Origin: a virus
Virus record (IMG/VR): IMGVR_UViG_3300032820_002681
Location: 1-23,567 of that record
Strand: one strand, 5' to 3'
Length of the DNA stretch: 23,567 nt
Shown: piece after piece, positions 2,490 through 17,874 of the stretch
How the letters are laid out: each line of letters begins with the position of its first letter
Numbering within the stretch: position 1 is the first letter of the stretch
Made by a program: the position numbers and the translations under genes
Notes under the pieces: model-generated
What the model saw: only the letters and a program-made list of their open reading frames with translations
What the model was told of the DNA's origin: nothing
The model's database searches: none

Positions 2490-2648
2490 ATGTATGAAAC
2501 CTTTTATGCAATCGTTTTAGCTGCCAGTGCCATTTATGGTATATTTTTAGGCTTTAGAGACATGAAGAATGTTACGACAGGACATAAACCTTATGATGGA
2601 GTTTATGACTTTTTAACAAGAGAGATGTTTGATGAAGACACTCCTTAA
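2490..2648 (+). CDS. Small membrane protein, 52 aa
   Basis: ATG at 2490 is preceded by TTGAGG at 2477-2482. The product begins MYETFYAIVLAASAIYGIFL, a single hydrophobic helix (about residues 5-22), and continues with a charged tail that ends in acidic residues (D-E-D-T-P). It is likely an inner-membrane protein with one pass. It lies 38 bases downstream of a good promoter, and its end is close to the start region of the next gene. The function is unknown; tiny single-pass proteins are common in phage early regions. Confidence 0.6.
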   Translation: MYETFYAIVLAASAIYGIFLGFRDMKNVTTGHKPYDGVYDFLTREMFDEDTP

Positions 2649-2679
2649 AAATTGTTGGAATAGAATAGGTAAGAGCGAT

Positions 2680-3243
2680 ATGAACAGGCTAAAAAACCAT
2701 TCTGTGTATATGGTAGGGTCAATGGATTCTGACCGCGAAGCTGGGGCACAATGGAGAGACGAAATGACCCCATTTTTACAATCTTTGGGGCTGAGGGTTA
2801 TCAACCCATATACAAAACCTTTGTGCCAATTTAGTAACGACCCCAAAACGCTAGAAGATGATACTAATTTTGGTAAGATACAAACTTCTTTAAAAAATAA
2901 AAACTACGACCTAGCAAAAGATTTGGTTAAACAACTTAGGGCAACAGACCTAAGATTTGTTGACACCAGCCATCTCTTATTAGTATATTTAGATTTTGAC
3001 CAGTTGCTAACAGGTACTTTAGAAGAAATAGTAACGGCCAATAGACAGAAAAAACCCGTAATAATTAAAACTTCCGTACCTAAAAACCAAATGCCTCATT
3101 GGTATTTCGGTATGCTGCCACACGAACTATTTTTTGAGACATGGAATGAGGTTAAAGAATATTTGACACATATCAACTCTGCCCCAAAAATTGATGATTT
3201 AGATGGCAGATGGGTATTTTTTGACCAAGAATTTTACGCATGA
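2680..3243 (+). CDS. Nucleoside 2-deoxyribosyltransferase-like protein
   Basis: A 187-aa protein starting HSVYMVGSMD, then DEMTPFL..LGLRVINPY, followed by a helical part and a second Rossmann-like half with FVDTSHLLLVYLD and TGTLEEIVTA. This is the layout of the nucleoside 2-deoxyribosyltransferase (NDT-like) fold: an N-terminal V-Y-x-x-G strand-loop, an Asp-rich strand, and a G-T-x-x-E motif (E115/E116) where NDTs carry the nucleophilic Glu. Phage members are thought to act in nucleotide salvage or NAD/nucleotide-derivative chemistry; the substrate cannot be told here. ATG 2680 is preferred because the domain begins at once. An upstream in-frame ATG at 2632 (GAGAG before it) would add 16 residues and overlap the small membrane protein gene. 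Confidence 0.65.
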   Translation: MNRLKNHSVYMVGSMDSDREAGAQWRDEMTPFLQSLGLRVINPYTKPLCQFSNDPKTLEDDTNFGKIQTSLKNKNYDLAKDLVKQLRATDLRFVDTSHLLLVYLDFDQLLTGTLEEIVTANRQKKPVIIKTSVPKNQMPHWYFGMLPHELFFETWNEVKEYLTHINSAPKIDDLDGRWVFFDQEFYA

Positions 3244-3318: not shown

Positions 3319-3328
3319 GGTGTATAAT
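3319..3328 (+). promoter_or_regulatory. -10 box of the tmRNA promoter (GGTGTATAAT)
   Basis: The perfect TATAAT at 3323-3328 ends six bases before the first base of the tmRNA acceptor stem (3335), so the RNA could start at its mature 5' end. No convincing -35 box lies 16-17 bases upstream (TAAAAT). The same ten bases recur at 17866 and 19491, suggesting a specific phage promoter type rather than a chance -10. Confidence 0.6.
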
Positions 3329-3334
3329 TACCCA

Positions 3335-3634
3335 GGGCGCGACATAGATTCGATTTATATTGTAAGATTATGTTTTCATGTAGTGGTTGGTGAGAAGGCC
3401 ACTTAAAAATCTCACTAAATTTTTTAACCGCAAATTACAATTTTGCTTTGGCTGCTTAAAGCAGCTAGGTTTGCTAGAACCATTTGCCAAAACTAGACGT
3501 TGTTATAGCGAATATAACTGATAGTAATAATTTACTGACGTAAGATTGGGCTGGCTGTATGCCTAATACAGCTAAACATGTAAACGACATTATTAAATAA
3601 TATGAAGACCTGGGGGCAGAACCCAGCGCGTCCA
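3335..3634 (+). ncRNA. ssrA: tmRNA (ssrA), one-piece, tag ANYNFALAA
   Basis: The 5' end GGGCGCG (3335-3341) pairs with CGCGTCC (3627-3633) to make the acceptor stem, followed by discriminator A3634; CCA is not encoded. The 5' part contains the conserved tmRNA box GATTCGA. A textbook H-type pseudoknot lies at 3382-3415: AGTGG pairs with CCACT (3399-3403), and GTGAGA (3390-3395) pairs with TCTCAC (3410-3415). Fourteen bases later the resume codon GCA (3430) opens the frame A-N-Y-N-F-A-L-A-A-stop (TAA 3457-3459). The stop sits in the loop of a GCTGC/GCAGC hairpin, as in E. coli helix 5. Further hairpins (GTTATA/TATAAC, GCTGTAT/ATACAGC) fill the rest. The T arm is CTGGG/CCCAG with loop GGCAGAA, which is atypical. 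The tag ends in ALAA, the host ClpXP/ClpAP degron type. Total length is 300 nt. Confidence 0.92.
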
Positions 3635-3672
3635 CTTTTGGACTACATGGGAACCAATATGTATACAGCATA

Positions 3673-3692: not shown

Positions 3693-4400
3693 TTGAAGAA
3701 ATTTACAATTATCTTAAATTCTAGGAAACGATTTCTTTACCTAGAGAACCTCTTAAATAGTATTAAAAATACTACGTCCAATCTCTCTGATATAGAGGTT
3801 CTAATAAGCTGTGATAGTGACGACGATTCTACATCAGTCTTTTGGCAAAATAACTCTAGCCAGTGGCCTTGGGCGTTTTGTGAATTTATCGAAAGAGAAA
3901 AGAACCTAACTCTTAGGTTTAATAATATTATCAAAAACAGCGAAGGAAAATATATATTTATATTAAATGATGATTGCGAAATATTGACTCCCGACTGGGA
4001 AATTGATGCATTTGACAAATTAGAACAATATGAAGATAATATTATTTATGGAAGAACACAAGACAATTCTTGTGACAAGGTTATGGGAGGCCCATACGCA
4101 TCCTTTCCCATTGTGTCTAAAAGGTCCACAGACATATTAGGGTTTTTTATGCACACAGACTTTCCAGGTCTAGGGGGAGATGTTACCTTATATAGAATCT
4201 ATAATGAGATTGATAGAATAATTGATTTAAATGTACATATTAATCATGTTTTGCACACAACTGTTGAAAAGGTTATGAACCCAGATGAAACAGCGTCAGA
4301 GATGAGACAAACGACATACAATTCATATGTAAATGAACAGACATTTGATATTTCTAAAGACGTAGAAAAACTCAGGAAGCATGTAAATCACTATGCGTAA
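3693..4400 (+). CDS. GT-A (family 2-like) glycosyltransferase
   Basis: A 235-aa protein with the GT-A signature: FTIILNSRKR at the N-terminus, the strand VLISCDSDDDS near 36-46, and the nucleotide-sugar/metal motif FILNDDCEI (NDD at 92-94). It lacks membrane segments, so it is probably cytosolic or peripheral. The start is TTG, with GGAAT and GAG just upstream; no ATG fits the domain start. It is the first gene of the 14-kb overlapping operon, and the next gene begins inside its last eight bases. Donor and acceptor sugars are unknown. Confidence 0.8.
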   Translation: MKKFTIILNSRKRFLYLENLLNSIKNTTSNLSDIEVLISCDSDDDSTSVFWQNNSSQWPWAFCEFIEREKNLTLRFNNIIKNSEGKYIFILNDDCEILTPDWEIDAFDKLEQYEDNIIYGRTQDNSCDKVMGGPYASFPIVSKRSTDILGFFMHTDFPGLGGDVTLYRIYNEIDRIIDLNVHINHVLHTTVEKVMNPDETASEMRQTTYNSYVNEQTFDISKDVEKLRKHVNHYA

Positions 4401-5328
4401 ATTATCGGTTATATATAACATATGTGGAATTTCTAAAAAAGAAGATTTTCTACAATATGTTAAGGTGTTAAATAGTTTAAAAAATCAAAACTTTGATGAT
4501 TACAATATAGTCGTATCTGGATGTATGGTAGAAGACAATGTATTAAATCTATTAAAAAATACCTACCCAGACATTTTGGTTGTAAATGTTAAAGACGTAG
4601 TGCCCGTTAACGTGAGTTTTAACGCAACTGTTAAAACAATAAACAAGACCGTAGGGCCATCAGAAGGATACTTATATCTCGATTATGGAGTATCTCTTAA
4701 CAAGGAAGACAATCTACAAAATTTATACAACCTATTTAAAAGTGGGCCATATTCTATGGTTTCTACTCAAACAGAAAACGATAATGGATATCATCTATGG
4801 TTTGGGTTGGGTAAATTTCACGGAGATGAAAGTGAAAATTACAAACTATTTGAAAACGGAGACTTCGTAGTCCCGGTTGGCAAATGTGTTAATCTACATG
4901 CCCAAATCTTTTCACACGAACTATATGAAGCATATGGTAAAGTAATACCAGATATCTTTGCGGCATATTGTACAGAATCTGTGTTGAGTTTTCTAAATGC
5001 TGCTATAAAGAGACAATGGATTATTAGTAAAGATATAATTTTACCACATACTGAATTGGCCTATAATTGTGCTTCTGGGTTTGGCAATGGTGTTAATGGC
5101 CTGGACAGGCCCTTTGGTTTTAATTACTCTATATTAGACAGAATAGCTCCTGGAGTACCTCATGGTATGGGTTATGATGAAAGCCGTGGATTAGTAATGC
5201 ATAATACATCATGTTTCGACGATAACGGATTTTGTACGAACGATGATTTAAAACAATATATTAAAGATTATATCTTTTTATCAAACGAAGAATTTAATTA
5301 TGGTGATTTAGAAATATGTATGATTTAA
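4393..5328 (+). CDS. Glycosyltransferase-like protein (GT-A fold, divergent)
   Basis: A 311-aa protein starting LSVIYNICGISK, with the strand YNIVVSGCM, and later EGYLYLDYGVSL (Asp97 in the place of the DxD motif). These features suggest a divergent GT-A glycosyltransferase. The C-terminal half is rich in His, Cys and aromatic residues and has no recognised domain. No transmembrane segment is seen. It overlaps the preceding gene by 8 bases and the next by 13, within the sugar operon. It is less certain than its neighbours; other nucleotide-sugar-binding enzymes are possible. Confidence 0.6.
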   Translation: MRKLSVIYNICGISKKEDFLQYVKVLNSLKNQNFDDYNIVVSGCMVEDNVLNLLKNTYPDILVVNVKDVVPVNVSFNATVKTINKTVGPSEGYLYLDYGVSLNKEDNLQNLYNLFKSGPYSMVSTQTENDNGYHLWFGLGKFHGDESENYKLFENGDFVVPVGKCVNLHAQIFSHELYEAYGKVIPDIFAAYCTESVLSFLNAAIKRQWIISKDIILPHTELAYNCASGFGNGVNGLDRPFGFNYSILDRIAPGVPHGMGYDESRGLVMHNTSCFDDNGFCTNDDLKQYIKDYIFLSNEEFNYGDLEICMI

Positions 5329-6071
5329 CTATTTTTCAACCGGCATATAGAACAGACAGGTGGCAACAATATATAAACAGCGTAGAAGCTGCATGTTCTA
5401 AATATAGTTGTGAAATTATATTTTGCGGACCAAATGCCCCGAACTGCATCTTGCCAGATAATGTTAAATTTATTCATGATAAAGGCTCTCCGGCTAGATG
5501 CGCCAATATCGCATCTCTACATGCGTCCGGCAAATTTGTATTAGTAGGTTCAGACGATGCTTTGTTTGTCGCTGGAATATTAGACGAATTGCTTGATTTT
5601 TGTTATGCCAATATAACAAAACAAAACATAGTTGTTCCAATTAAGTACGGAGAAGCTAAGACATGGATGGCAGACGAATATTGGTATATGTGGTACCATG
5701 CACCCTTAAGATTAGAAGGTATAGCAGAAGACCGTATCGTAATGTTAAACGCGGTTTATCGTAAAAGTTATTGGGATTACGTTGGGGGATATGACTGTTC
5801 CAAATTTGACACACTAAATTGGGGAGGCCATGATTTAACAATGCGTCTCTATAATTTAAATACTACATTTAAAAAATTCGATAAACATATTATGATGTGT
5901 GATTGGAGCCCAGGAACTAAAGACCATTCTCCTATTGAAAAAAGCGATATTGACAATTATAAAGTTTTTAAAGAATTATATCAAGAGACAAATACAGAAA
6001 GACAAGAAATAGATATTAATAACTGGATACACGCCGACAAAGAGTGGAAATATGGAGACTTAAGACTATGA
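5316..6071 (+). CDS. GT-A glycosyltransferase, paralogue A
   Basis: A 251-aa glycosyltransferase with DLTIFQPAYRTDRW at the start, EIIFCGPN near 33-40, DKGSPARCANI (56-65) and VGSDDALFV (SDD at 79-81, the metal/donor site). The C-terminal half carries GGHDLTMRLYN and the ending INNWIHADKEWKYGD. Its GSPARC block, GPN strand and NNW ending are shared with the products at 9430 and 12045, so these are three paralogues within one operon that probably add different sugars in sequence. It overlaps its neighbours by 13 and 4 bases. Confidence 0.8.
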   Translation: MYDLTIFQPAYRTDRWQQYINSVEAACSKYSCEIIFCGPNAPNCILPDNVKFIHDKGSPARCANIASLHASGKFVLVGSDDALFVAGILDELLDFCYANITKQNIVVPIKYGEAKTWMADEYWYMWYHAPLRLEGIAEDRIVMLNAVYRKSYWDYVGGYDCSKFDTLNWGGHDLTMRLYNLNTTFKKFDKHIMMCDWSPGTKDHSPIEKSDIDNYKVFKELYQETNTERQEIDINNWIHADKEWKYGDLRL

Positions 6072-6991
6072 ATGTATTAATCACTGGTATAAACGGCAGC
6101 GCCGCCCAATATCTAGTTGATTTTATTACAGAGAATTATCCCGCTGTAAATGTTTCGGGCATATCTAGGAGAATAGTACCGTCTGATAAGTACGAAGTCT
6201 ATCAATGTGATTTGTCTGATTTAGGAGCGACTATAAGAGCGTTAAAAGAATTAAAACCAGACTACATATTCCACTTGGCTTCAAATGCTGATGTCAAAAT
6301 GTCTTATGCAAACCCATCGGCAATGCTAGACAACAACATCAACAATACTATTAATTTATTTGAGGCTATTAGAATACTAGAAATAGAACCTGTGGTCCAG
6401 ATGTGTTCTACGTCTGAGGTATATGGAAAGCCACAATATGTGCCCGTATGTGAAAACCACCCCATTAATCCAGCAAATATATATGCCATATCCAAATTAA
6501 CTCAAGAAAATATAGCTAAATATTATTATGAAGCTTTTGGATGTAGGGTAATAATTACCAGGGCATTTGGTTATATTAATCCCAAGAGACATAACATCTT
6601 TTCTACGGCATTTGCCAAACAAATTGCCAAAATGGAACAGGGTAAGCAAGATGTTTTGGTTCATGGAAACCTAGAATCTATTAGGACATTAATAGATGTT
6701 AGAGATATAGTCAGGGCATATTGGATTGCTGTTGAAAAATGTGACTATGGAGTTCCTTATAATATTGGGGGAATACAACCTTTTTCTGTAAAAGAAATAC
6801 TACATAAGCTGTGCGAGAAATCTACTATTGAGCCAAATCTTCATGAGAACCCCGGCTTATTAAGGGCCAACGATATCACAGAGCAGATTCCTTCGGTGGA
6901 TAAATTTAAAGAGCTAACAAATTTTGTTCCTCAGTTTTCAATAGACGAAAGCCTAGATTATTTAATGGAGTATTGTAGATTAAATGTTTAA
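6068..6991 (+). CDS. GDP-mannose 4,6-dehydratase / GDP-4-keto-6-deoxymannose reductase family SDR
   Basis: A 307-aa extended short-chain dehydrogenase. NAD(P)-binding motif TGINGSAAQYL (6-16; third Gly replaced by Ala), IFHLAS (68-72), catalytic STSEVYG (114-120) with Y139-A-I-S-K143, and VRDIVRAYW, a block shared by GDP-mannose dehydratase (GMD) and GDP-6-deoxy-lyxo-hexulose reductase (Rmd). Length and the GNLESIRTLIDVRD block favour Rmd-like enzymes, while the T-S-E triad and ITGIxG start recall GMD; the activity is unsettled. If dehydratase, it would make GDP-4-keto-6-deoxymannose, the shared precursor for fucose, rhamnose, perosamine and colitose. ATG 6068 (ATGA overlap with the previous stop) is preferred over an upstream in-frame ATG at 6044. 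Confidence 0.75.
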   Translation: MNVLITGINGSAAQYLVDFITENYPAVNVSGISRRIVPSDKYEVYQCDLSDLGATIRALKELKPDYIFHLASNADVKMSYANPSAMLDNNINNTINLFEAIRILEIEPVVQMCSTSEVYGKPQYVPVCENHPINPANIYAISKLTQENIAKYYYEAFGCRVIITRAFGYINPKRHNIFSTAFAKQIAKMEQGKQDVLVHGNLESIRTLIDVRDIVRAYWIAVEKCDYGVPYNIGGIQPFSVKEILHKLCEKSTIEPNLHENPGLLRANDITEQIPSVDKFKELTNFVPQFSIDESLDYLMEYCRLNV

Positions 6992-7967
6992 AAATTCAAA
7001 TATTTTAGTTACAGGCGGAACGGGAATGATAGGCAGGCATCTAATAGACCTGTTAAAAGAAGAAAGTCCTAGCTCAATTACAAGCGTATCTTTAGACAGT
7101 TCTAAAATACAAGACGTAAAATGCCTACAATTAGATTTGACCAATTTTGATAATTGCCTTAACATCACCCAAGATAAAGACTATGTGTTTCATTTAGCAG
7201 GCATTAAAGGTTCTCCTAAAATGGCAAAAGAACAACCCGCCAATTTTACTGTTCCTATGCTTATGTTTAATACCAATCTCTTGGAGGCCGCTCGTAGAAA
7301 TTGTGTAACGTGGTTATTATATACATCTTCCATTGGGGTTTATCAGCCTGCTGAAATTTTAAAAGAAGATGATGTATGGAATACTATGCCTTCTAAAAAT
7401 GATTGGTACGCAGGATGGACCAAAAGAATGGGTGAGCTTCAAATCGAAGCATATCAAAAGCAATATAATAAAAACAATATGTCTATTGTGAGGCCAGGAA
7501 ATGTATATGGTAAATATGACAACTTTAATCCTGAAACAAGTATGGTTATTCCTGCCTTAATTGCAAGAATATGTGGAGGGGAAAACCCTCTTAAAGTATG
7601 GGGAGACGGTAGCGCAGAAAGAGACTTTGTTGATGCTCAGGACGTAGCTAGAGGAATGATTTGGGCGGTGAAACATAAAATATGTGAGCCTATTAATTTG
7701 TCTAGCGGGACTCTTATTACTATAAAAGATTTAGTAGAATATATATGTAGTAGTTACCAACAATTGACAGGTACTTCAGTAAGTATAGAATGGGATGTGT
7801 CCAAACCAACTGGAGATGCAAGAAGATTAATGAGTATGGATAGAGCCCGTGGCACAGGTTTTACAAATACGGTTTCTATTGAAGAAGGAATACTATCTGT
7901 TATGAAATGGTATTTAACTAACGGCAGTTTTAACAGAGAAAGATTTGATGTATTCGCTAGCAAATAA
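6984..7967 (+). CDS. GDP-fucose-synthase-like SDR with displaced catalytic Tyr
   Basis: A 327-aa extended SDR with LVTGGTGMIGRHL (8-20), FHLAG and YTSSIGVY (113-120). The block NVYGKYDNFNPETS, then MVIPALI and KVWGDGSAERDFVDA, places it in the GDP-L-fucose synthase (WcaG/Fcl) relatives. The active-site YxxxK is altered: the sequence reads Y142-A-G-W-T-K147, one residue too many between Tyr and Lys compared with the usual Y-G-W-x-K. It may be a 4-epimerase or reductase with shifted geometry, or catalytically weak. It overlaps neighbours by 8 and 20 bases and is closely related to the next gene, suggesting duplication. Confidence 0.75.
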   Translation: MFKNSNILVTGGTGMIGRHLIDLLKEESPSSITSVSLDSSKIQDVKCLQLDLTNFDNCLNITQDKDYVFHLAGIKGSPKMAKEQPANFTVPMLMFNTNLLEAARRNCVTWLLYTSSIGVYQPAEILKEDDVWNTMPSKNDWYAGWTKRMGELQIEAYQKQYNKNNMSIVRPGNVYGKYDNFNPETSMVIPALIARICGGENPLKVWGDGSAERDFVDAQDVARGMIWAVKHKICEPINLSSGTLITIKDLVEYICSSYQQLTGTSVSIEWDVSKPTGDARRLMSMDRARGTGFTNTVSIEEGILSVMKWYLTNGSFNRERFDVFASK

Positions 7968-8874
7968 AAATGTTTTAGTCACTGGGGCTACAGGTCTTGT
8001 GGGTATGAATATTTTACCTGTTTTATTAAAAGAACAGGCCAATGTTTTTTCATGTGGTGGTCATAAAGAATATGATTTAACCAATCATGATGTTATTAAA
8101 GATTTATTCGCAAAATTTAAGCCAGATGTAGTTATTCATTTGGCCGCTCAAACTTCTGGTGCTGCGGTAATGGAAAAAACTCCGCTAGCACATGTTACTC
8201 CTAACGTTGTAATGAACACATGCTTACTAGAGGAAGCATATAAATCAGGGGTAGAAAAATTTGTTTGGCTGGCTAGCACAACTGGCTATCCTGAATTTGA
8301 TGGATTTATTACAGAAGAACGTATGTTTGAGGGAGACCCTTATCATAAATACTTTGCTGTAGGATGGATGAAGAGATACACAGAGAAACTGTGTGAGCTA
8401 TATGATTCATTCAACAAGATGTCTTGCATAGTGTTAAGGCCCACTAATATTTACGGGCCGCATGACAAGTTTGACCCAGAACGGTCTCATGTTCTTCCTG
8501 CTTTAATTAGAAAGGTAGTTGAAAAACAAAATCCTGTAGAAGTTTGGGGAGACGGCAAAGATATTAGAGATATTGTTTATGTTTCAGATATGGTAGATGC
8601 TATTATATTGGCCATACAAAAGATAGATAGTTATACCCCAATGAATATTGGCTTGGGAGAGACCTTATCGGTTAATGAAATTTTAGATATTATTATGAGG
8701 TGTGAAAATCATAATGTTCCTATTTCTCATGTAAACAACAAACCAAGCATGATTCCTAAAAGAGAAGTATCAATTCAAAAAGCCAAAGACCTTCTGGGGT
8801 TTGAACCAAAAGTTTTTCCACAAGAAGGTATACAAAAAACCATAGAATGGTATAAAAATGAGTATCAAGCTTAA
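7948..8874 (+). CDS. GDP-fucose-synthase-like SDR lacking canonical YxxxK Tyr
   Basis: A 308-aa extended SDR with LVTGATGLVGMNIL (10-23), VIHLAAQTSG (62-71), LASTTGY (108-114), NIYGPHDKFDPERSHVLPAL and VEVWGDGKDIRDIV. These are WcaG/Fcl-type blocks. At the catalytic site the sequence reads Y135-F-A-V-G-W-M-K142: the position four before Lys is Val138, so the usual Tyr is missing from its register. Start ATG 7948 lies inside the end of the previous gene (20-base overlap), preceded by AGAGAAAGA; a TTG one codon earlier is possible. It could be a non-catalytic partner of the neighbouring SDR or an enzyme using another Tyr. Confidence 0.75.
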   Translation: MYSLANKNVLVTGATGLVGMNILPVLLKEQANVFSCGGHKEYDLTNHDVIKDLFAKFKPDVVIHLAAQTSGAAVMEKTPLAHVTPNVVMNTCLLEEAYKSGVEKFVWLASTTGYPEFDGFITEERMFEGDPYHKYFAVGWMKRYTEKLCELYDSFNKMSCIVLRPTNIYGPHDKFDPERSHVLPALIRKVVEKQNPVEVWGDGKDIRDIVYVSDMVDAIILAIQKIDSYTPMNIGLGETLSVNEILDIIMRCENHNVPISHVNNKPSMIPKREVSIQKAKDLLGFEPKVFPQEGIQKTIEWYKNEYQA

Positions 8875-9433
8875 TTTAGGCTGTCGAGACAAACCTATGC
8901 CGACATATATAAATGTTGACATAGACCCAACAAATTCTTACGCAGATGTGATAGACAATGCTTTTGAACTGAATACTATTGACGACAACAGCGTCGATTT
9001 AATAGAAGCTATTCATATGTTTGAGCATTTGTCTTATAAAGAATCTACTAAGGCACTCAAAGTATGGTTTAAAAAATTAAAAACAAAAGGGGTATTAAGA
9101 CTCTCTGTTCCAGACTTAGATAAGATGTGTTCATTACACCTGTTGTTGCAAGACAAAGATATCGTAAAAACAATGTTTGTCGGTTCCCAAAGAGATGAAT
9201 GGGATTACCACAAAAACATTCATAGTCGGGCTTCTTTGTCAAAAGATTTAGAAGAGATTGGGTTTAGCAATATACAAACATGGGATTATGCAACTACTTG
9301 GCCCCATAATTATGTTGACACCTATGCTTCTATGACTTGGCCTCCTATGAGAAAGCGATTTGAATTTGCCAATGGTAAAAAAGTAGACTTAGGAGGAATC
9401 TGCCTGTCATTAAACCTGGAAGCAACAAAATGA
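8858..9433 (+). CDS. SAM-dependent methyltransferase (class I)
   Basis: A 191-aa Rossmann-type methyltransferase. Motif I is KLNLGCRDKP (4-13), the acidic residue ending strand 2 is in INVDID (D21), and motif II/III is in DNSVDLIEAIHMFEHL (43-58). It then continues LSVPDLDKM, typical of small COG4627-like methyltransferases found in polysaccharide gene clusters. It probably methylates a sugar hydroxyl or amino group or the end of a glycan. It overlaps neighbours by 17 and 4 bases within the operon. Confidence 0.8.
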   Translation: MSIKLNLGCRDKPMPTYINVDIDPTNSYADVIDNAFELNTIDDNSVDLIEAIHMFEHLSYKESTKALKVWFKKLKTKGVLRLSVPDLDKMCSLHLLLQDKDIVKTMFVGSQRDEWDYHKNIHSRASLSKDLEEIGFSNIQTWDYATTWPHNYVDTYASMTWPPMRKRFEFANGKKVDLGGICLSLNLEATK

Positions 9434-10239
9434 GTTATGATTTAACGGTATTTATAGCAGGGATTAGAACCCCTTTATGGAAAAATTTAGTTGAAAGCCT
9501 AAACTTAGCGTGTAAAAGATATAGTTGGCAAATTATATTTAGCTCATGCTTTAATCTGCCAGACGATTTAACAGGTTTGCCCAATGTGTCTTTAGTTATG
9601 GATAAAGGACATGTTACAAGGGCTAATCAAAAAGGGTTGTTAAACGTAGACAGCGAACTGGTCTTTTTAAGCGTGGACGATGCTGTGTTCTTGGAGGATA
9701 GTCTAGACAAGGGCCTAGACCTGTGGCATAAGCAGTGTACCTCTAAAGACCTTGTTTCAATGAGATATATTGAGGCTAATTCTCGTGTGCCCCTAGACTA
9801 TTGGAGAATGCACCATCATCCTATTTTAAGATTGCCAGGAATACCAGAAACCCAGTTATTTGGTCATCATCCTATAATGAGTATGAGTAATTTTTACGAA
9901 CTGGGCGGATTTGATTGTCAGTTTGAATATTTAACTTATCCTTTATTAGATTACAACATTAGGTTGGTGAAAAACGGAGGTAAAATATATTTATCGGAAA
10001 CAGAGTGTGCGTTTTGCGGACACTATGTAAAAGACACAGGGGACCACGGGCCGGTACATGAGGCTCAAGAGTTTCACGATAGGCCAATTTTTGATGAAAT
10101 GTATAGACAAGCAAACGATAGAATTAAAATCTCTTATAACAATTGGAAGGATGCTTCTCCAGTATGGCATCGTAGATTTTCTAATGGTATTCCAAGAACA
10201 TATGAAGAACTATGTATAAATGAGGGCTATACTATATGA
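9430..10239 (+). CDS. GT-A glycosyltransferase, paralogue B
   Basis: A 269-aa protein homologous to the products at 5316 and 12045: DLTVFIAGIRTPLW at the start, WQIIFSS, DKGHVTRANQKG where the others have GSPARCxNI, and LSVDDAVFLED (VDD at 82-84). The C-terminal half has GGFDCQFEY and the ending ISYNNWKDASPVW. The Arg of the GSPAR block is kept but its context differs, which may reflect a different donor. It overlaps the methyltransferase and the next SDR by four bases each (ATGA). Confidence 0.78.
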   Translation: MSYDLTVFIAGIRTPLWKNLVESLNLACKRYSWQIIFSSCFNLPDDLTGLPNVSLVMDKGHVTRANQKGLLNVDSELVFLSVDDAVFLEDSLDKGLDLWHKQCTSKDLVSMRYIEANSRVPLDYWRMHHHPILRLPGIPETQLFGHHPIMSMSNFYELGGFDCQFEYLTYPLLDYNIRLVKNGGKIYLSETECAFCGHYVKDTGDHGPVHEAQEFHDRPIFDEMYRQANDRIKISYNNWKDASPVWHRRFSNGIPRTYEELCINEGYTI

Positions 10240-11141
10240 GAGTATGTGTCACTGGGTCTGAAGGATTTATTGGAAGATATATTGTTGATAAGTTTTCGAG
10301 AGAAGGACATGAAGTAATAGGGATTGATAATTTAAGTAAGTATGGTCGTACTAAACCAATGTGTAAGTACAGATTAATTATACACGACCTAACACACCCC
10401 AAAACTATTCAGTTGATGCAAAAATTAGATTGTGATTTAATTATTGATTTAGCAGAAGATGTTGGAGGAACGACGTATTTACATAAACAGGGTTTTCATA
10501 AAATACAAACCAGCTTAGCTATTAGGCACAATATTTTATCTAGTTGCCAAATAACAAATGCTAGGTATATGTGTATTTCAACGTCATCTCTATACGAGAG
10601 TGTACAAACATTTCCTACCTCCGAAATACCTTTAAACGAATTGCCATGCCCACAGTCTCCATATGCTTTGTCTAAGTTTAATGCAGAATACTTAACCAAA
10701 TTGGCCAATGTGAATTTTGTAATAGTCAGGCTTTTTAACGCTGCTGGTATTGGGGACGATTGTTTTGAAAAGGCACACGTAATTCCCCATCTTGTTCATA
10801 AAATTAAACATGAAAAGTCGATTAAATTACATGGAGATGGGAAACAAGTTAGGAATTTTACTCATTGTAAAGACATAGCCGATGCCCTATATATAGTTTC
10901 TAGTTCTGCGCATATGGGAGAAACATTTAATATAGGCTCTCATAACACATATGACATATTAACTCTTTGTGAAAAAATATCTAATAAACTAAATATTAAC
11001 AAACCTATAGAAACTTCTACTTCTTTTTCTTACGATGTAAACAAGAGCGAACCAGATATATCTAAATTACTTAACATAGGTTATAATCCTGCTTACGACA
11101 TGGATATGATTTTAGACGAGGCAATACAATATTATGAATGA
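10236..11141 (+). CDS. Extended SDR, UDP-hexose 4-epimerase-like
   Basis: A 301-aa extended SDR: CVTGSEGFIGRYIV (4-17), the acidic strand end IGIDNLS (28-34), STSSLYE (115-121), and a canonical catalytic Y143-A-L-S-K147. Further blocks are VRLFNAAGIG and KQVRNFTHCKDIADAL, as in GalE/UDP-glucuronate-type epimerases and dehydratases. It belongs to a different subgroup from the Fcl-like SDRs around it. The usual H-x-A-A after strand 4 is replaced by IIDLAEDVGG, an unusual variation. The substrate is unknown. Confidence 0.78.
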   Translation: MRVCVTGSEGFIGRYIVDKFSREGHEVIGIDNLSKYGRTKPMCKYRLIIHDLTHPKTIQLMQKLDCDLIIDLAEDVGGTTYLHKQGFHKIQTSLAIRHNILSSCQITNARYMCISTSSLYESVQTFPTSEIPLNELPCPQSPYALSKFNAEYLTKLANVNFVIVRLFNAAGIGDDCFEKAHVIPHLVHKIKHEKSIKLHGDGKQVRNFTHCKDIADALYIVSSSAHMGETFNIGSHNTYDILTLCEKISNKLNINKPIETSTSFSYDVNKSEPDISKLLNIGYNPAYDMDMILDEAIQYYE

Positions 11142-12069
11142 AAAAAGCATTTTAGTCACAGGAAGCAATGGGTTTCTAGGCAAAGCGGTTAAAAAAGAAT
11201 TAAAAAATCGCGGCTATACCAATGTGATTGCCTCAAAGGGTAAAAAAGAATGTGACTTTAGAAACAGAAAAGAAACCCAAGACTTTTTTGAACATCACAA
11301 GCCTAATTCTGTTATACATTTAGCCGCTACCGTTGGGGGAATAGGGGCAAATCAAGCTAATCCTGGAATGTTTTTCTATGACAATATTTCAATGGGTATC
11401 AATCTTATTGATGAGTCTTATAGGCACAATGTAGAAAAATTTGTACTAATTGGAACGGTCTGTATGTATCCTAATCATACAACAGTTCCATTTAAAGAGT
11501 CTGACTTATGGACGGGTTATCCAGAACCAACCAATGCCCCGTATGGGATTGCTAAAAAGGCTTTGATGGAGATGTTAAATGCGTATAGAAAGCAATACGG
11601 CTTTAATGGTATAACGTTATTGCCAGTTAATTTGTATGGGCCTCATGACAATTTTCACCCAGATAATAGTCATGTTATTCCAGCCCTTATTAATAAAGTA
11701 TATGATGCCATGAGTATTTCTCCTCATAAAAATGTTATCGTGTGGGGAACAGGAAATGCTAGTAGAGAATTTTTATATGCAGACGATTGTGCTAAGGGCA
11801 TTTTAGACGGATTAGAAAAATACAATCAGGCAGAACCTCTAAATTTAGGAACTGGGCAAGAAATCAAAATTAAAGACCTGATAGACAAGATAGCTAATTT
11901 AATGGGCTTTAAAGGAAAAATATTATTCGACCACGACAAGCCAGACGGACAAATGAGAAGATGTTTAGATATAACAAATGTTAGAAGTGCATTAAATTTC
12001 AAAGCAACTACTGATTTTGACGAAGGACTGCGAGAAACAATTAAATGGTACATGGCTCAGAAAAGATAG
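11134..12069 (+). CDS. fcl: GDP-L-fucose synthase family (Fcl/WcaG; possibly GDP-L-colitose synthase-like)
   Basis: This 311-aa protein is the clearest Fcl homologue in the window. It has LVTGSNGFLGKAV (7-19), HLAATVGGIGANQA (62-75), and IGTVCMYP (106-113), where E. coli Fcl has LGSSCIYP; the active-site Ser is replaced by Thr and the Cys is kept. Next come EPTNAPYGIAKK with Y137 and K141, NLYGPHDNFHPDNSHVIPAL, and VWGTGNASREFLYADD. Fcl performs 3,5-epimerisation and 4-reduction of GDP-4-keto-6-deoxymannose to GDP-L-fucose; the related ColC makes GDP-L-colitose from the 3-deoxy intermediate. The ColD-like enzyme at 14808 makes the second option worth considering. It overlaps neighbours by 8 and 25 bases. 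Confidence 0.85.
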   Translation: MNEKSILVTGSNGFLGKAVKKELKNRGYTNVIASKGKKECDFRNRKETQDFFEHHKPNSVIHLAATVGGIGANQANPGMFFYDNISMGINLIDESYRHNVEKFVLIGTVCMYPNHTTVPFKESDLWTGYPEPTNAPYGIAKKALMEMLNAYRKQYGFNGITLLPVNLYGPHDNFHPDNSHVIPALINKVYDAMSISPHKNVIVWGTGNASREFLYADDCAKGILDGLEKYNQAEPLNLGTGQEIKIKDLIDKIANLMGFKGKILFDHDKPDGQMRRCLDITNVRSALNFKATTDFDEGLRETIKWYMAQKR

Positions 12070-12800
12070 ATTTAAGCATTATTATTCCGGCCATTAGAAC
12101 AAAAGAATGGTTCAGGCTTTATCGGTCCGTAGAACAAAATTGCACAAAATATAATTTTGAGATTATATTCGTTGGTCCCTATAATTTGCCGGAAGAATTG
12201 CAACAATATACTAATGTTAAATACATAAGAGATTGGGGCTCGCCAGCAAGATGTATGAACATTGGAGCAAGTGTGGCAGAAGGAAAATATGTCACATGGG
12301 GTGCTGACGACGGGGTTATTATAAATGAAATTGCTCCCTGCTTAGACATTTTGAATGACGCAGAAGGTAAGACTGTGGTCGTAACTAAATATTTAGAAGC
12401 GCATGATAATATACAGGATGATTCATACTACTTTTTAAGTAATGCATACCCTCCTTTACCACACATGCAAAACGAACAATTAATATTTAACATAGCATTC
12501 ATGCATTTGTCATCATATTTAGACTTAGGGGGATGTGACGCCATATTTGATGTAAGCTGTATGTGTTTGGCTGATTTAGCAGTGCGTGCGCATAATGCCA
12601 AACTACCTACAGTATTTTACAAAACCCCCACATGGAAATTTGACTGGGCTCCTGGGGGAGAGCATATTCCTATAGAAAAAGCACAGGCTAAAGACTGGAA
12701 AACGTTTAGCCAAGTTCATTTAGACACTAATAGAATTAATATACCATTTAATAACTGGAAAAACAGTCCAAAGATATGGAAAGAAAGATTTCATGGCTGA
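12045..12800 (+). CDS. GT-A glycosyltransferase, paralogue C
   Basis: A 251-aa protein with DLSIIIPAIRTKEW, EIIFVGPYNLPEE (39-51), DWGSPARCMNIG (63-74) and TWGADDGVII (ADD at 87-89). The ending is IPFNNWKNSPKIW. It is most similar to the product at 5316 (shared GSPARCxNI, and HxPIEK near the C-terminus). ATG 12045 lies 25 bases inside the preceding gene, the largest overlap in the operon; no later ATG fits before the domain starts. Confidence 0.8.
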   Translation: MVHGSEKIDLSIIIPAIRTKEWFRLYRSVEQNCTKYNFEIIFVGPYNLPEELQQYTNVKYIRDWGSPARCMNIGASVAEGKYVTWGADDGVIINEIAPCLDILNDAEGKTVVVTKYLEAHDNIQDDSYYFLSNAYPPLPHMQNEQLIFNIAFMHLSSYLDLGGCDAIFDVSCMCLADLAVRAHNAKLPTVFYKTPTWKFDWAPGGEHIPIEKAQAKDWKTFSQVHLDTNRINIPFNNWKNSPKIWKERFHG

Positions 12801-12906
12801 TGTATCTATTATTGTACCCTCTATAAGACCAGATGGGTTCAATCAATTGTTAGACAGTATTAAAAAGAATACTACCGTATGGCCCCGCAGATTTAAAGTA
12901 TCATGA
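12793..12906 (+). pseudogene. Truncated glycosyltransferase N-terminus (37 codons)
   Basis: The frame begins ATG inside the end of the preceding gene and reads MADVSIIVPSIRPDGFNQLL then DSIKKNTT, clearly the first strand and helix of a family 2-type glycosyltransferase (compare DLSIIIPAIRT next door). It then stops at TGA, which overlaps the next start (ATGA). No continuation of the GT domain is seen in other frames; the next gene is a TPP enzyme. The best reading is an internal deletion that removed a fifth GT while keeping start/stop coupling through the junction. Confidence 0.7.
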
Positions 12907-13523
12907 ACAAACAACAATTAATAGATTTTGAAAAAGATATTGCCGCCTTATATGAAGAGGGTAAAATTAAAGGAGTTATTCATTTAAGAGATGGTAATGA
13001 AGAAAAATTAATAGAAATTTTTAAGTCTATTGGCATAGAAGACTATGTTTTTGCAACATGGGCCAATCATTTAGAAGCTTTATTAAAAGGGATACCGCCA
13101 AAACTGGTCAAGGCGCGTATAATAGAGGGAGAGTCTATGGCTATGAATTTTCCCGACTATAAATTTTATACCTCTGCCATAGTAGGAGGAATCTGCCCCA
13201 TTGTGGTAGGAACTGCTATGGCCTTAAAAAGAAAAGGAAGTCCTCATAGGGTATATGCATTTATTGGAGATATGACCTCTGTTTCTGGTATAGCCAACGA
13301 ATCTATTCGTTATAGCATTAATCACAATCTACCTATAACGTGGGTGGTTGCGGATAATAATAAATCTGTAATGACAGACACAAGAAAAACTTATGCAGGA
13401 AACATAGGTAATTATATACAAGAGCTTATAAGCAATGCCAGAGGAACAAACACAGAAATCATACATTATAAATATAAAAGTACGTGGCCACATAGCGGAA
13501 CTGGAACATTTGTGAGTTTTTAA
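12903..13523 (+). CDS. TPP-dependent enzyme, E1 alpha-like (diphosphate-binding) subunit
   Basis: A 206-aa protein resembling the alpha subunit of 2-oxoacid dehydrogenase E1. The N-terminus has F-x-K-D-I-A-A-L-Y-E-E-G-K-I-K-G and H-L-R-D-G-N-E, like E1 alpha (Y..G.I.G..H...GQE). The TPP/Mg motif is GDM (122-124) followed 27 residues later by DNN (151-153); the family usually has GDG...NN. It is much shorter than true E1 alpha (about 330-400 aa) and lacks the phosphorylation-loop/C-terminal part. It is paired with the E1 beta-like protein that follows (TAATG junction). No lipoyl E2 or E3 gene is near, so a decarboxylase/carboligase on a sugar intermediate is more likely than a dehydrogenase complex. 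This is inference. Confidence 0.75.
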   Translation: MNKQQLIDFEKDIAALYEEGKIKGVIHLRDGNEEKLIEIFKSIGIEDYVFATWANHLEALLKGIPPKLVKARIIEGESMAMNFPDYKFYTSAIVGGICPIVVGTAMALKRKGSPHRVYAFIGDMTSVSGIANESIRYSINHNLPITWVVADNNKSVMTDTRKTYAGNIGNYIQELISNARGTNTEIIHYKYKSTWPHSGTGTFVSF

Positions 13524-14056
13524 TGAATTATTTACAAGAAGTACAAAAAGGTATGGACCTTTTAGCAGAAAGTCCGTATACTATATTTATGGGGCAAGCA
13601 GTAGGCTGTAAAGGTCATGCTATAAGCAGACAGGTTGAAAACTACCTTATGGAGAAAAGACTAGAGTTGCCAGTCGCAGAAGAAATGCAGACGGGAATGG
13701 CCCTGGGTATGGCGTTAGAAGGTTATATTCCTGTTTCGGTATATCCTCGTTGTAATTTTGCCATTCTTGCCTGTAGCCAAATAGTAAACCATATAGACAA
13801 GTGGCCTTTAATGGTTCCTAATTCTACCAGACCTAAAGTTATTATGAAGATGGTGGTAGGTTCGGTTCATCCTTTAGACCCAGGTCATCAGCACAAAGCC
13901 AACTATGCAGACGCATTTAAATCTATGTGTGAAACGATAGAAGTATTTGACCTTACACAAACGGAAGATATAATGCCAGCCTATGATAAGGCTCTTAATA
14001 GAAACGATGGTAGGTCTACCATTTTGGTAGAATATGGGGATAAATACAATGGATAG
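13523..14056 (+). CDS. TPP-dependent enzyme, E1 beta-like (pyrimidine-binding) subunit
   Basis: A 177-aa transketolase pyrimidine-binding domain: TIFMGQAVGCKGHA near 20-33, ELPVAEEMQTGMALGMALEG (48-67) with E53 in the place of the Glu that activates the TPP aminopyrimidine, then YIPVSVYPRCNFA and SQIVNH. True E1 beta has about 325 aa with a C-terminal transketolase domain; that domain is missing here. The first base of its ATG is the last base of the alpha-like stop, so the two chains are probably made in equal amounts and assemble. Its place in a sugar operon suggests C-C bond formation or cleavage on a keto sugar, or supply of an activated aldehyde. Confidence 0.75.
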   Translation: MNYLQEVQKGMDLLAESPYTIFMGQAVGCKGHAISRQVENYLMEKRLELPVAEEMQTGMALGMALEGYIPVSVYPRCNFAILACSQIVNHIDKWPLMVPNSTRPKVIMKMVVGSVHPLDPGHQHKANYADAFKSMCETIEVFDLTQTEDIMPAYDKALNRNDGRSTILVEYGDKYNG

Positions 14057-14408
14057 AAAAACAATATTCATAGACATAGATGGAACATTGCTTGAACACC
14101 CTGGAGAGTTGAGCGATATTTATACAGCAAATCAAGAAAAATTACCAGGGGTTACGGAAAAATTAGACAAATGGAATTTTGACGAAGAATATATTATTAT
14201 TGTAACAGCAAGGCCAGAGTCATTACGAAATGTTACGATTAGGCAGTTAGAAGAAAGAGGAATATTTTATCATCAATTAATTATGGGTTTGCCGCATGGC
14301 ACAAGATATGTAATTAATGATGCTAAACCTTCTAAAGCTAAAACCGCATTTGGTATTACTGTTCCGAGAAATGAAGGACTAATCAATGTGGAACTAAACA
14401 ATGAATAA
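14049..14408 (+). CDS. HAD-superfamily phosphatase, small
   Basis: A 119-aa HAD protein. Motif I is FIDIDGTLL (D9, D11), motif II is IIIVTARPES, and motif IV is YVINDAKPSKAK. There is no cap domain, which fits small-molecule or sugar-phosphate phosphatases such as those found beside nucleotidyltransferases in polysaccharide clusters. ATG 14049 is preferred because the domain starts at once; an in-frame ATG at 14034 is possible. It overlaps both neighbours by eight bases. It might dephosphorylate the product of the kinase at 16885 before nucleotidyl transfer, as GmhB does in heptose pathways. Confidence 0.8.
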   Translation: MDRKTIFIDIDGTLLEHPGELSDIYTANQEKLPGVTEKLDKWNFDEEYIIIVTARPESLRNVTIRQLEERGIFYHQLIMGLPHGTRYVINDAKPSKAKTAFGITVPRNEGLINVELNNE

Positions 14409-14826
14409 GGTAGTTTGTTCTGGTTATTTCAATCCTATACATATAGGTCACATCGAATGTTTTCGGGAGGCTAGCAAATTAGGACCATTGACCGTAATTG
14501 TAAACAGCGATAAGCAAGTAGCATTAAAAGGTTCTATTCCTTTTTTTGACGAAGATGAGCGCTGTGCTATTGTTCTTGCTAATAAATATGTAAGTAAGGT
14601 CAAATTATCTATTGATGAAGATGAAAGCGTGGCTAAAACCCTAGCTCTTTTAAAGGCAGATGTGTTTTATAATTCTGGAGACAGAGATATTCACAATGTT
14701 AATGAAAAAGAACGTCTTATATGCGAAGAAATAGGAACGTCTATTGTATATGGCAATTTGGGAAAAGTACAATCTAGTTCTGAATTAATAGAAAAGGCAG
14801 CGAGAGAATGGGTAAAAAGACAATAG
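14401..14826 (+). CDS. Cytidylyltransferase-like nucleotidyltransferase (HIGH family)
   Basis: A 141-aa protein with SGYFNPIHIGHIECFREA; HIGH at 14-17 is the nucleotide-binding signature of glycerol-3-phosphate cytidylyltransferase and the HldE C-terminal domain. VIVNSDKQVALKG follows, close to HldE (VAVNSDxSxxRLKG), then FFDEDERCAIV and VQSSSELI at the C-terminal switch. It should transfer a nucleotide (CMP or AMP) to a sugar- or polyol-phosphate. Together with the HAD phosphatase before it and the GHMP kinase at 16885 this gives a kinase/phosphatase/nucleotidyltransferase set like the ADP- or GDP-heptose routes. A decayed relative is at 22020. Confidence 0.82.
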   Translation: MNKVVCSGYFNPIHIGHIECFREASKLGPLTVIVNSDKQVALKGSIPFFDEDERCAIVLANKYVSKVKLSIDEDESVAKTLALLKADVFYNSGDRDIHNVNEKERLICEEIGTSIVYGNLGKVQSSSELIEKAAREWVKRQ

Positions 14827-15956
14827 AATTTGGCGAACTGAGAATTTCTAAACTAGCCAAAAAACATATTAAAGATTGTATAAAAAGAAACTGGGTTAGC
14901 ATAGGGCCAAAAACGAAGCTATTTGAAGAAAAGTGGCAAAACCTATTTGGATATAATCATACGGTTATGGTTAATTCAGGTACTTCCGCAGACACAGCGG
15001 CGTGTATGGCTCTATATGAATACGACTCTTTAAGACAGGGAGACTACATAATATGCCCAGCTCTCTCTTTTATTGCTACGGCTAATTCTATTAGGGCAGC
15101 AGGTTTTGAACCCTTATTTATTGATGTAGATAAAGAAACTTTAAACATAGATGTAAGCCAAATAGAAGGAGCAATTGAAAAGTACGGAAGCAAAGTTGGT
15201 GCGATTATGTCTGTTAATTTAATGGGCAAGCCCTGCAGATTAGATATTATACAAGACATATGCCGAAAGCATGGTCTAATACATATTGTGGATAACTGCG
15301 AAGCATATGGTAGTAAAATAAAAGGCAAGTATTCTTTAGAATACGCAGATATGGAAACTACGTCGCATTATATTGCCCACATCATTTGCTGTGGAGAAGG
15401 AGGAACCGTAAGCACCAATTCTAAATCTTTAGCAAATCAGATAAAGTCTATAAGGTCTCATGGAAGGTATCCTGGTAGCGCTGATTTTGACCACATTAGA
15501 TATGGATTGAATTTGAAGCCGACAGATTTATGTGCGTCTATAGGCTTAGGAGAGATAGATACTTTTCATGAGATTTTTAAAAAGCGTAAAAAAACGTTGT
15601 ATAAATTTTCAGAAGCCACCCAAGAATTTAAAGACATGGCCTATTTTGTTGAGGAGGATGAAGATGCGGTTAATGCTCCTCATGGATTTTCCATTACTCT
15701 TAAGCCCAAATATAAGGACCAGATACAAAAGTTAAAAAAATACTTAACAAAAGTAAATATTCATTGGAAGAAAAATTTTGGAAGCATGAAAGAACACAAA
15801 GCATTTGACAACTATGGGGAAAAGTATGGAGATTGTTCTAATGCTATATATATAGGAAACTATGGCATTCATATTGGTTGCCACTATTGGTTGTCTAAAG
15901 CAGACAAAGACTATGTGTGTCACCATCTTAAAAAAGGTTTAAGTAAATTACAATGA
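14808..15956 (+). CDS. DegT/DnrJ-family PLP enzyme with Lys-to-His change (ColD-like 3-dehydratase)
   Basis: A 382-aa fold-type I PLP protein of the sugar aminotransferase family: NSGTSADTAA (56-65), CPALSFIATANSI, the PLP-binding Asp in VDNCEAYGSK (D162), and CCGEGGTVSTN (195-204). The residue that forms the Schiff base, five before GEGG, is His191 (Y-I-A-H-I-I-C-C-G-E-G-G) instead of Lys. This substitution is known in ColD, the GDP-4-keto-6-deoxymannose 3-dehydratase of colitose synthesis (His188), and in the Fe-S enzyme RfbH/E1. The length is close to ColD (388 aa), and D-N-C-E-A-Y-G-S resembles the D-x-C-D-A-L-G-S of that subgroup. It therefore probably removes the C3 hydroxyl of a keto sugar rather than transaminating. 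It overlaps neighbours by 19 and 4 bases. Confidence 0.8.
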   Translation: MGKKTIEFGELRISKLAKKHIKDCIKRNWVSIGPKTKLFEEKWQNLFGYNHTVMVNSGTSADTAACMALYEYDSLRQGDYIICPALSFIATANSIRAAGFEPLFIDVDKETLNIDVSQIEGAIEKYGSKVGAIMSVNLMGKPCRLDIIQDICRKHGLIHIVDNCEAYGSKIKGKYSLEYADMETTSHYIAHIICCGEGGTVSTNSKSLANQIKSIRSHGRYPGSADFDHIRYGLNLKPTDLCASIGLGEIDTFHEIFKKRKKTLYKFSEATQEFKDMAYFVEEDEDAVNAPHGFSITLKPKYKDQIQKLKKYLTKVNIHWKKNFGSMKEHKAFDNYGEKYGDCSNAIYIGNYGIHIGCHYWLSKADKDYVCHHLKKGLSKLQ

Positions 15957-16888
15957 GAGTATTAATTACAGGAGCCGCAGGATATATCGGTTCCAAGCTA
16001 ACAAATTATTTTGTAAAGAATAATATTCATGTTACTGCAATAGATAGTTTGTTACACAACCAACATCATTTCGTAGAAGAAGTATTTAAAAGCCCTTGGT
16101 GTTCTTTTCATCAAAGAGATGCTGGAAACATCCCTAGGCACCTATTAAAGAGGGCAGATGTAATTTATCCATTAGCAGCGTTGGTGGGTGCCCCTCTGTG
16201 TGATAAAAGCCCTGAAGAAGCAATAAGGGTAAACACTACAGAAGTTGCTAATTTAATGAAGCTGCTTAGTCCAAACCAGCGTGTGATTTTTCCCAACACT
16301 AATAGCGGCTACGGAGCAACGGGAAAAGATATTTGCACAGAAGAAACCCCGTTAAATTCAGTCTCTGTTTATGGAACGTCTAAAGAATTTGCAGAAGAAA
16401 TTGTGTTAGAGCATGAAAACTCCACAGTTTTTCGTCTTGCCACAGTGTTTGGAACATCTGTTAGACCTAGAATAGACCTGATGGTCAATAATTTTGTATA
16501 TTTAGCAAAAACCACTGGAAAAATAGAGGTTTTTGAGGGTCATTTTAGACGCAATTTTGTACATTTGATAGATGTGGTTTCAACTTTCGCCAAGTGCATA
16601 GAAGATTCCAGAACCAAACAACAGGTTTATAATCTTGGTAACGATTCTTTAAACATGACCAAGTTGGATTTGGCTTATAAAATTGCAAAACATTTGCCTG
16701 TAGAGGTTTCTGAATCCAGTGGTCTAGACCCAGACAAACGAGATTATATTGTTAGTAGCAATAAGCTGTTAAGCCTGGGCTATGAAACTAAAATAGATTT
16801 AGACTATGGTATTACAGAAGTAAGCAATATGCTAGACGAATTAGATTTAAACAATCCAAAATTAGTAAAGGCAATGCGTAATGTATGA
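15953..16888 (+). CDS. Extended SDR, nucleotide-sugar epimerase/dehydratase
   Basis: A 311-aa extended SDR with VLITGAAGYIGSKLT (3-17), the acidic strand end TAIDSLL (28-34), YPLAALVGAP (72-81), FPNTNSGYG (113-121) and canonical Y140-G-T-S-K144. VFRLATVFG and FRRNFVHLIDVV are typical of the epimerase family. It is not of the Fcl subgroup. It shares four-base overlaps with both neighbours and precedes the sugar kinase; in capsule heptose clusters an SDR in this place modifies the activated heptose, but that role is only suggested by context. Confidence 0.78.
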   Translation: MRVLITGAAGYIGSKLTNYFVKNNIHVTAIDSLLHNQHHFVEEVFKSPWCSFHQRDAGNIPRHLLKRADVIYPLAALVGAPLCDKSPEEAIRVNTTEVANLMKLLSPNQRVIFPNTNSGYGATGKDICTEETPLNSVSVYGTSKEFAEEIVLEHENSTVFRLATVFGTSVRPRIDLMVNNFVYLAKTTGKIEVFEGHFRRNFVHLIDVVSTFAKCIEDSRTKQQVYNLGNDSLNMTKLDLAYKIAKHLPVEVSESSGLDPDKRDYIVSSNKLLSLGYETKIDLDYGITEVSNMLDELDLNNPKLVKAMRNV

Positions 16889-17874
16889 TTATTACAAAAA
16901 CTCCGTACCGCTGTAGTCTTTTTGGAGGCTCAACAGACTATCCAAGTTATTACGAACAATATGGTTCGTTGTTAATTGGTTTTGCAATGAATCGTTATTG
17001 TTATAACTCTATAATGAAATTGCCAAGATTTTCAGATATTAATTATCAGGCTTTCTACTCTCGCACAGAAATAGCAAATTTTAGTAATGAGATTAAAAAC
17101 CCAGGTATTCGTGGAACTTTACAATTTTGCGAAAGGAATATTCGAGATTTCAAAAAGGTTGCCATGTTTGTTCAAAACGAATTACCGTCTAGAACAGGAA
17201 TAGGTAGCAGCTCTAGTTTGATTGTAGGTTTGTTAAAAGGGATATATACTCTCTTTAAAATAGATTTTGACAAAAAACAATTAGCTACAGATGCTATTAA
17301 CATAGAGAGACATTTATTAAAAGAGCCAGGAGGAATACAAGACCAGATTTGGGCGGCGTATGGAGGATTTAATAGCGTAGACATTGACAAACACGGAGGT
17401 TTTTTTGTTAAGCCGCTGGCAATATGTTCGGAGTTTGTGGATTACTTTTTAGATTCTTCAATTATGTTTTATACAAAAATACAAAGAGATTCATTTGAAG
17501 TGGCAGAATCTCATAATGAAAAATCTGCGGAACAATACAAAAAACAAATCCACGACATTGCTAAAGACGCTTTAACGTTATTTGAAGATGAAAACTTAGA
17601 AGGAATAGGAAAATTATTGGACAGGTCTTGGCAAATGAAGAAGCAAATTTCACCATTAATCAACAACGAACACATTGATTCTTTGTATAAAAGTATAATG
17701 AAAAGCGGTGCTTTCGGGTGCAAATTGTTAGGAACTGGCAGCGGGGGATTCTTGTTTTGTCTGTGTGATAATAATAGAAGGCAAAAGATTATAGACACTG
17801 TTAAATTACCATACATTGATATCAAACCTAGTTATGATGGAAGCAAAACTATTTTCAATGAGAACGGTGTATAA
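16885..17874 (+). CDS. GHMP-family sugar kinase, HddA-like
   Basis: A 329-aa GHMP kinase. Motif 1 is TPYRCSLFGGSTDYP (6-20), as in D-glycero-D-manno-heptose 7-phosphate kinase HddA and fucokinase relatives (PxRxxxxGGxTD). The ATP loop is LPSRTGIGSSSSLIVG (100-115). EPGGIQDQIWAAYGGFN follows (family: PxGxQDqyaaaxGGxN), and the C-terminal motif is KLLGTGSGGFLFC. It should phosphorylate a sugar or sugar-phosphate at the anomeric or a ring hydroxyl. It is the last gene of the overlapping operon; its stop codon TAA forms part of the TATAAT box that starts the next transcription unit. Confidence 0.82.
   Translation: MIITKTPYRCSLFGGSTDYPSYYEQYGSLLIGFAMNRYCYNSIMKLPRFSDINYQAFYSRTEIANFSNEIKNPGIRGTLQFCERNIRDFKKVAMFVQNELPSRTGIGSSSSLIVGLLKGIYTLFKIDFDKKQLATDAINIERHLLKEPGGIQDQIWAAYGGFNSVDIDKHGGFFVKPLAICSEFVDYFLDSSIMFYTKIQRDSFEVAESHNEKSAEQYKKQIHDIAKDALTLFEDENLEGIGKLLDRSWQMKKQISPLINNEHIDSLYKSIMKSGAFGCKLLGTGSGGFLFCLCDNNRRQKIIDTVKLPYIDIKPSYDGSKTIFNENGV

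Follow-up and report, generated by a model that had tools for sequence, protein, structure and literature searches.

A one-piece tmRNA gene in a phage genome fragment

The window analysed here is a stretch of 23,567 nucleotides (IMG/VR virus record IMGVR_UViG_3300032820_002681, positions 1 to 23,567). The Rfam tmRNA model RF00023 aligned completely (model positions 1-374) with positions 3335-3637 of the window at 89.9 bits (E 4.9e-34), the gathering cut-off of the model being 47 bits. This full-length covariance-model match, together with the tag reading frame, bore out the claim of an earlier note that the phage encodes a tmRNA with a degradation tag of its own. The gene and its surroundings contain the following features:

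3323..3328, + strand: TATAAT, possible -10 box (sequence; +1 would fall near 3335)
3335..3637, + strand: one-piece tmRNA gene (RF00023 match; relatives)
3335..3341, + strand: 5' strand of the acceptor stem, GGGCGCG, pairing with CGCGTCC at 3627-3633 (covariation)
3342..3353, + strand: D-loop box ACATAGATTCGA (sequence; compared with the RF00023 and RF01849 consensus)
3377..3380, + strand: distal strand of helix 2, CATG, pairing with 3577-3580 (covariation)
3382..3415, + strand: pseudoknot PK1, 3382-3386/3399-3403 and 3390-3395/3410-3415 (compensatory changes in relatives)
3430..3459, + strand: frame of the tag, with GCA 3430-3432 as resume codon, ANYNFALAA, stop codon TAA 3457-3459 (sequence)
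3451..3465, + strand: helix 5, hairpin GCTGC-TTAAA-GCAGC spanning the stop codon of the tag (sequence; Rfam alignment)
3470..3518, + strand: probable PK2-like pseudoknot, 3470-3474/3508-3512 and 3502-3507/3513-3518 (inspection only)
3548..3572, + strand: PK4-like pseudoknot, 3548-3551/3561-3564 and 3554-3560/3566-3572 (inspection; PK4 in L301, L327 and L311)
3572..3582, + strand: CTAAACATGTA motif at the junction of PK4 and helix 2 (RF00023 consensus GACUAAGCAUGUAG)
3607..3626, + strand: GAC and T-arm CTGGG-GGCAGAA-CCCAG (RF01849 consensus GGCgGUA; common to 21 other viral contigs)

The elements listed in the earlier note were found in the sequence: the 7 bp acceptor pairing between both ends, the GATTCGA box, the H-type pseudoknot PK1 (AGTGG/CCACT and GTGAGA/TCTCAC) 14 nt before the resume codon, the tag frame ending in ALAA and the hairpin over its stop codon. 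The acceptor includes the alanine identity pair G3-U70, which is GU in the window and in all three aligned relatives. The assignment of the mature 3' end was corrected to A3634 plus a non-encoded CCA: the mature RNA comprises 3335-3634 and the CCA is added post-transcriptionally (the DNA after A3634 continues with CTT, giving ACTT). The junction motif CTAAACATGTA is a hallmark of standard one-piece tmRNA. PK2 and PK4 of the window were without covariation support in the alignment with its relatives. The strict one-piece layout, defined as a paired acceptor, a D-box and a T-arm that pairs and has GGC or TTC in its loop, did not occur in any of 200 dinucleotide shuffles of the window.

In contrast to RF00023, ARAGORN did not support the gene and in a default run listed only two tRNAs, because the T-loop GGCAGAA and the D-loop UAGA are unusual. 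At relaxed score it reported a 'permuted' gene, which was rejected since it arises by wrapping the linear piece around; the tag frame given in that run is the one read at 3430-3459. No T-arm matching a permuted layout was found within 520 nt upstream of 3335, no acceptor half lies upstream of the tag half, and the model RF04321 scored 26 bits against a cut-off of 47. The gene of the window is thus one-piece and not permuted.

The earlier note had also placed a -10 box so that transcription would start at the mature end. TATAAT is present at 3323-3328, but no -35 element was recognisable for it and a promoter scan listed nothing there; the box is no evidence of late expression. The upstream sequence of L301 is partly similar to that of the window and has TTGACA. 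In five other viral genes of this kind (L053, L180, L245, L305 and L313) a TTCTTTGAAAAT-like element, absent from the window, precedes the mature 5' end by about 5-20 nt; presumably it resembles boxA of ribosomal RNA leaders. In L245, L305 and L313 the tmRNA is immediately followed by a hairpin (AAAGTGGTC...GACCACTTTTTTTTT) that looks like a strong intrinsic terminator, which suggests a stand-alone transcription unit.

The elbow is of the alphaproteobacterial type

The T-loop of the window, GGCAGAA (3615-3621 within the T-arm proper, 3610-3626), deviates from the canonical UUCRANY, and its D-loop has UAGA in place of the UGGA of standard tmRNA. The earlier note, correct in the elements it listed, did not mention the noncanonical T-loop and lacked the combination of a one-piece gene with an elbow of alphaproteobacterial type. 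The consensus of RF01849 (alpha_tmRNA, permuted two-piece, Alphaproteobacteria) has the T-loop GGCgGUA and the D-loop UAGGAUCGA. The elbow of the window agrees with the alphaproteobacterial pattern of a GGCNGUA-type T-loop and a UAG D-loop, although the last two bases of its T-loop are AA, not UA. Its D-loop, with A in place of G18, mixes the alphaproteobacterial UAG with the standard AUUCGA, and with GG at T-loop positions 54-55 the sites normally modified to m5U and pseudouridine are lost. Earlier comparative work reported GG in the T-loop of the Reclinomonas mitochondrion and G in that of Caulobacter (PMC1168896). The T-loop varies among accepted tmRNAs (PMC1168896), so a gene need not have the canonical loop to count as a tmRNA.

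A virus-borne class of one-piece tmRNA genes

IMG/VR was scanned with patterns for the D-box and the T-arm, and a geometry test for complementary acceptor and T-stems was then applied; this revealed the combination of a one-piece gene and a GGC T-loop in 21 contigs besides the window, representing about 15 distinct sequences. In the same IMG/VR loci, 157 permuted GGC genes were counted. The members of the class are:

L042, L043/L046, L053, L180, L229, L245, L302, L305/L322
L301/L312/L330/L332, L311, L313/L315/L331, L320, L323, L327

The weakest member counted is L180, with no Rfam match and an uncertain resume codon; the T-stem of L302, read by eye, is one pair longer or bulged. No RF00023 match was obtained at the L301 and L330 genes in their respective records. 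A comparison of the window and five class tmRNAs with 50,697 phage records gave no DNA relative beyond the T-arm, and scans of IMG/VR for the exact tag and the exact T-arm gave no matches. The huge phage LR756511 was rejected as a member, since the loop in its tmRNA is a normal TTC one. Other noncanonical elbows were observed in the course of the scans. The one-piece tmRNA at L044:4481-4831 (RF00023, 72.8 bits) has a T-loop that looks like TGCAAT, and the T-loops of about 27 distinct permuted viral tmRNAs start with TGC instead of GGC or TTC.

In an alignment of the window with its three closest relatives (L229, L301 and L327), 98.1% of 108 cells were paired. Two-sided pair changes numbered 9, compared with 2.2 in shuffles (0 of 500), and the signal was lost when partners were slid out of register. 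The acceptor, T-stem, helix 2 and PK1 covary in this alignment. Acceptor and T-stem pairing was a selection criterion of the class and is not independent covariation evidence across it; such evidence comes from PK1 and helix 2 in the three-relative alignment and from the PK1 pairs across the class, where the stems vary but stay complementary (AGTGG/CCACT, CGAGG/CCTCG, ATGAG/CTCAT).

The degradation tag

The tag codons GCA AAT TAC AAT TTT GCT TTG GCT GCT TAA encode ANYNFALAA. The commonest tmRNA tag length is 10 (PMC11915505). The shortness of the nine-residue tag, which the earlier note had pointed out, turned out not to be notable: nine-residue tags of the ANENFALAA and ANNNFAMAA type are common in the permuted viral genes detected in this analysis, two Cloacimonadota genomes encode ANYNFALAA itself, and ANYNYALAA occurs in many Bacteroidota-related genomes. 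The genomes of these two groups with such tags had standard TTC T-loops wherever the arm was read. Judged by its sequence, the tag of the window is ordinary; it points to no particular host and does not set the phage apart. Most class members have intact tags with ends in AA, VA or LA, among them GTNQLALAA (L229), ANDNAFAMAA (L042) and ANDNAFESFALAA (L043); among the tmRNA sequences of the class examined, a clear tag was not found in L320 and L323. The one-piece tmRNA at L053:7480-7923 has an unusually long tag of 33 residues, AEDNTDALLAEAEYIFNNADLFVGAEEEMLLAA.

Phage context and host

The window is most likely a fragment of a T4-like phage, because its first ORF matches the end of RIIB and the RuvB-like AAA ATPase at 707-1594 (RuvB N, lid and C domains) has matches to clamp loader families of phages as well. 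The protein encoded at 2629-3243 had no relatives by scan; a relative with 35% identity was found separately in L229, which also carries rIIA, rIIB, ThyX and dCMP deaminase. On these grounds L229 and the window phage are regarded as truly related. The roseophages that matched rIIA best gave no RF00023 match above the cut-off. Downstream of the tmRNA gene, positions 3693-17874 hold a long run of genes for glycosyltransferases, NAD-dependent sugar epimerases, a DegT aminotransferase, part of an E1-type dehydrogenase, a cytidylyltransferase-like protein and a GHMP kinase; the phage thus appears to carry a pathway for surface sugars.

The fragmentary records of the class yielded no SmpB gene; therefore the tmRNA of the window most likely works in trans-translation with the SmpB of its host. 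This partner is probably alphaproteobacterial, since the GGC/UAG elbow points to a host among the Alphaproteobacteria. Near-identical T-arms, encoded in permuted genes, occur in isolated phages of Erythrobacter and Mesorhizobium.

Taken together, it is likely that the gene starting at 3335 gives a T4-like phage a functional tmRNA in one piece, with an elbow of alphaproteobacterial type; it belongs to a virus-borne class. The following scheme presumes that it is expressed and of benefit to the phage. The 5' end of the RNA would arise from the transcription start, from the action of RNase P or from both, the host's CCA-adding enzyme would complete the 3' end, and the host's AlaRS would charge the RNA via G3-U70. 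SmpB binds the elbow, and its binding requires contacts with the D- and T-loops (PMC3968760); the GGC-type T-loop and the UAG D-loop may thus form an elbow that fits an alphaproteobacterial-type host SmpB. The charged tmRNA would then enter stalled ribosomes, translation would switch to the GCA at 3430, and ANYNFALAA would be added to the nascent protein, leading to degradation of the ClpXP type by the host.

Origin of the class

The gene of the window shares with standard one-piece tmRNA (RF00023), phage copies of which are known from mycobacteriophage Bxz1 and Bacillus phage G (PMC4131195), the contiguous order 5'-TLD, PK1, tag, H5, pseudoknots, TLD-3', the junction motif CUAARNAUGUA, G3-U70 and a short tag ending in ALAA. 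It differs from it in the T-loop (GGCAGAA instead of UUCRANY), in the D-loop (UAGA instead of UGGA) and in being ARAGORN-negative. With the permuted two-piece alphaproteobacterial tmRNA (RF01849/RF04321) it shares the GGCNGUA-type T-loop and the UAG D-loop, whereas it is one-piece and keeps PK4 and the junction motif. Permuted tmRNA is known from phage Melnitz (PMC9004378) and was also found in Erythrobacter phage vB_EliS-L02 and Mesorhizobium phage Cp1R7A-A1. The re-permuted mitochondrial tmRNA of Jakoba libera (PMC11915505), set beside the window by its description, is also contiguous and of the alphaproteobacterial/mitochondrial lineage, but mitochondrial tmRNA appears to be without a tag frame, which the phage gene has. 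In sequence terms, the class thus combines the one-piece topology with an elbow whose other known carriers are two-piece tmRNAs of Alphaproteobacteria and mitochondria.

A T-loop without UUC and the rejection of the gene by ARAGORN could indicate a decayed, inactive remnant whose T-loop has drifted. The covarying acceptor, T-stem, helix 2 and PK1 argue instead for a conserved class; the loop is conserved in 22 contigs, the stem changes are compensatory and the tags are mostly intact. This conservation largely refutes decay, which appears very improbable. Another explanation starts from the alphaproteobacterial elbow and assumes that the halves of a two-piece gene were rejoined, for example via tandem duplication. 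Permuted GGC genes are carried by many phages, the tags of L042 and L043 (ANDN...) are like those of many permuted genes, and the Jakoba libera mitochondrial gene provides a precedent (PMC11915505). However, the junction motif CUAARNNUGUAG was found in 10 of 14 distinct one-piece GGC sequences as against 1 of 131 permuted GGC genes, and an H-type PK4 is kept in L301, L327 and L311 (in the window by inspection), whereas in alphaproteobacterial tmRNA a single helix is left of PK4 (PMC1168896). These differences argue against a simple rejoining of halves, and we consider such an origin unlikely.

The same two features favour one of two courses: the class may descend from a stage that preceded the permutation, or the elbow may have passed into a standard tmRNA. 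In the latter case, a standard one-piece tmRNA of phage or bacterial origin would have gained the GGC T-loop and the UAG D-loop, by recombination or by point changes, and would thereby fit alphaproteobacterial SmpB. The standard-like PK4 and junction motif, the D-loop combining UAG with AUUCGA and a tag like those of non-alphaproteobacteria are consistent with this course, but about 15 distinct sequences agree in an elbow that involves several positions. Such agreement calls for a single origin or for the same changes having happened repeatedly, and leaves the proposal doubtful. In the former case, which is possible but less likely than not, the phage genes would be a surviving pre-permutation branch of the alphaproteobacterial/mitochondrial lineage: the GGC elbow would have come first, in one-piece tmRNA, the bacteria would have permuted their gene later, and the phages would have retained the older arrangement along with PK4 and the junction motif.

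Implications

At default settings, ARAGORN found 0 of 20 class members, while reporting 160 permuted and 35 standard tmRNAs in the other loci. A phage survey that classed genes with ARAGORN reported tmRNA in 2.3% of genomes, with only 2.5% of the one-piece copies being marine (PMC9004378), and a tmRNA database was built with ARAGORN and its own BLASTN-based search (PMC11915505). Since ARAGORN is blind to the class, tmRNA frequencies in phages may be underestimated, and the rarity of one-piece tmRNA in marine phages may be overstated, ARAGORN being the tool of the surveys cited. The class joins features that have been assigned to different tmRNA lineages and so bears on the origin of the permuted two-piece tmRNA; it is also a natural means of probing the recognition of the tmRNA elbow by SmpB.
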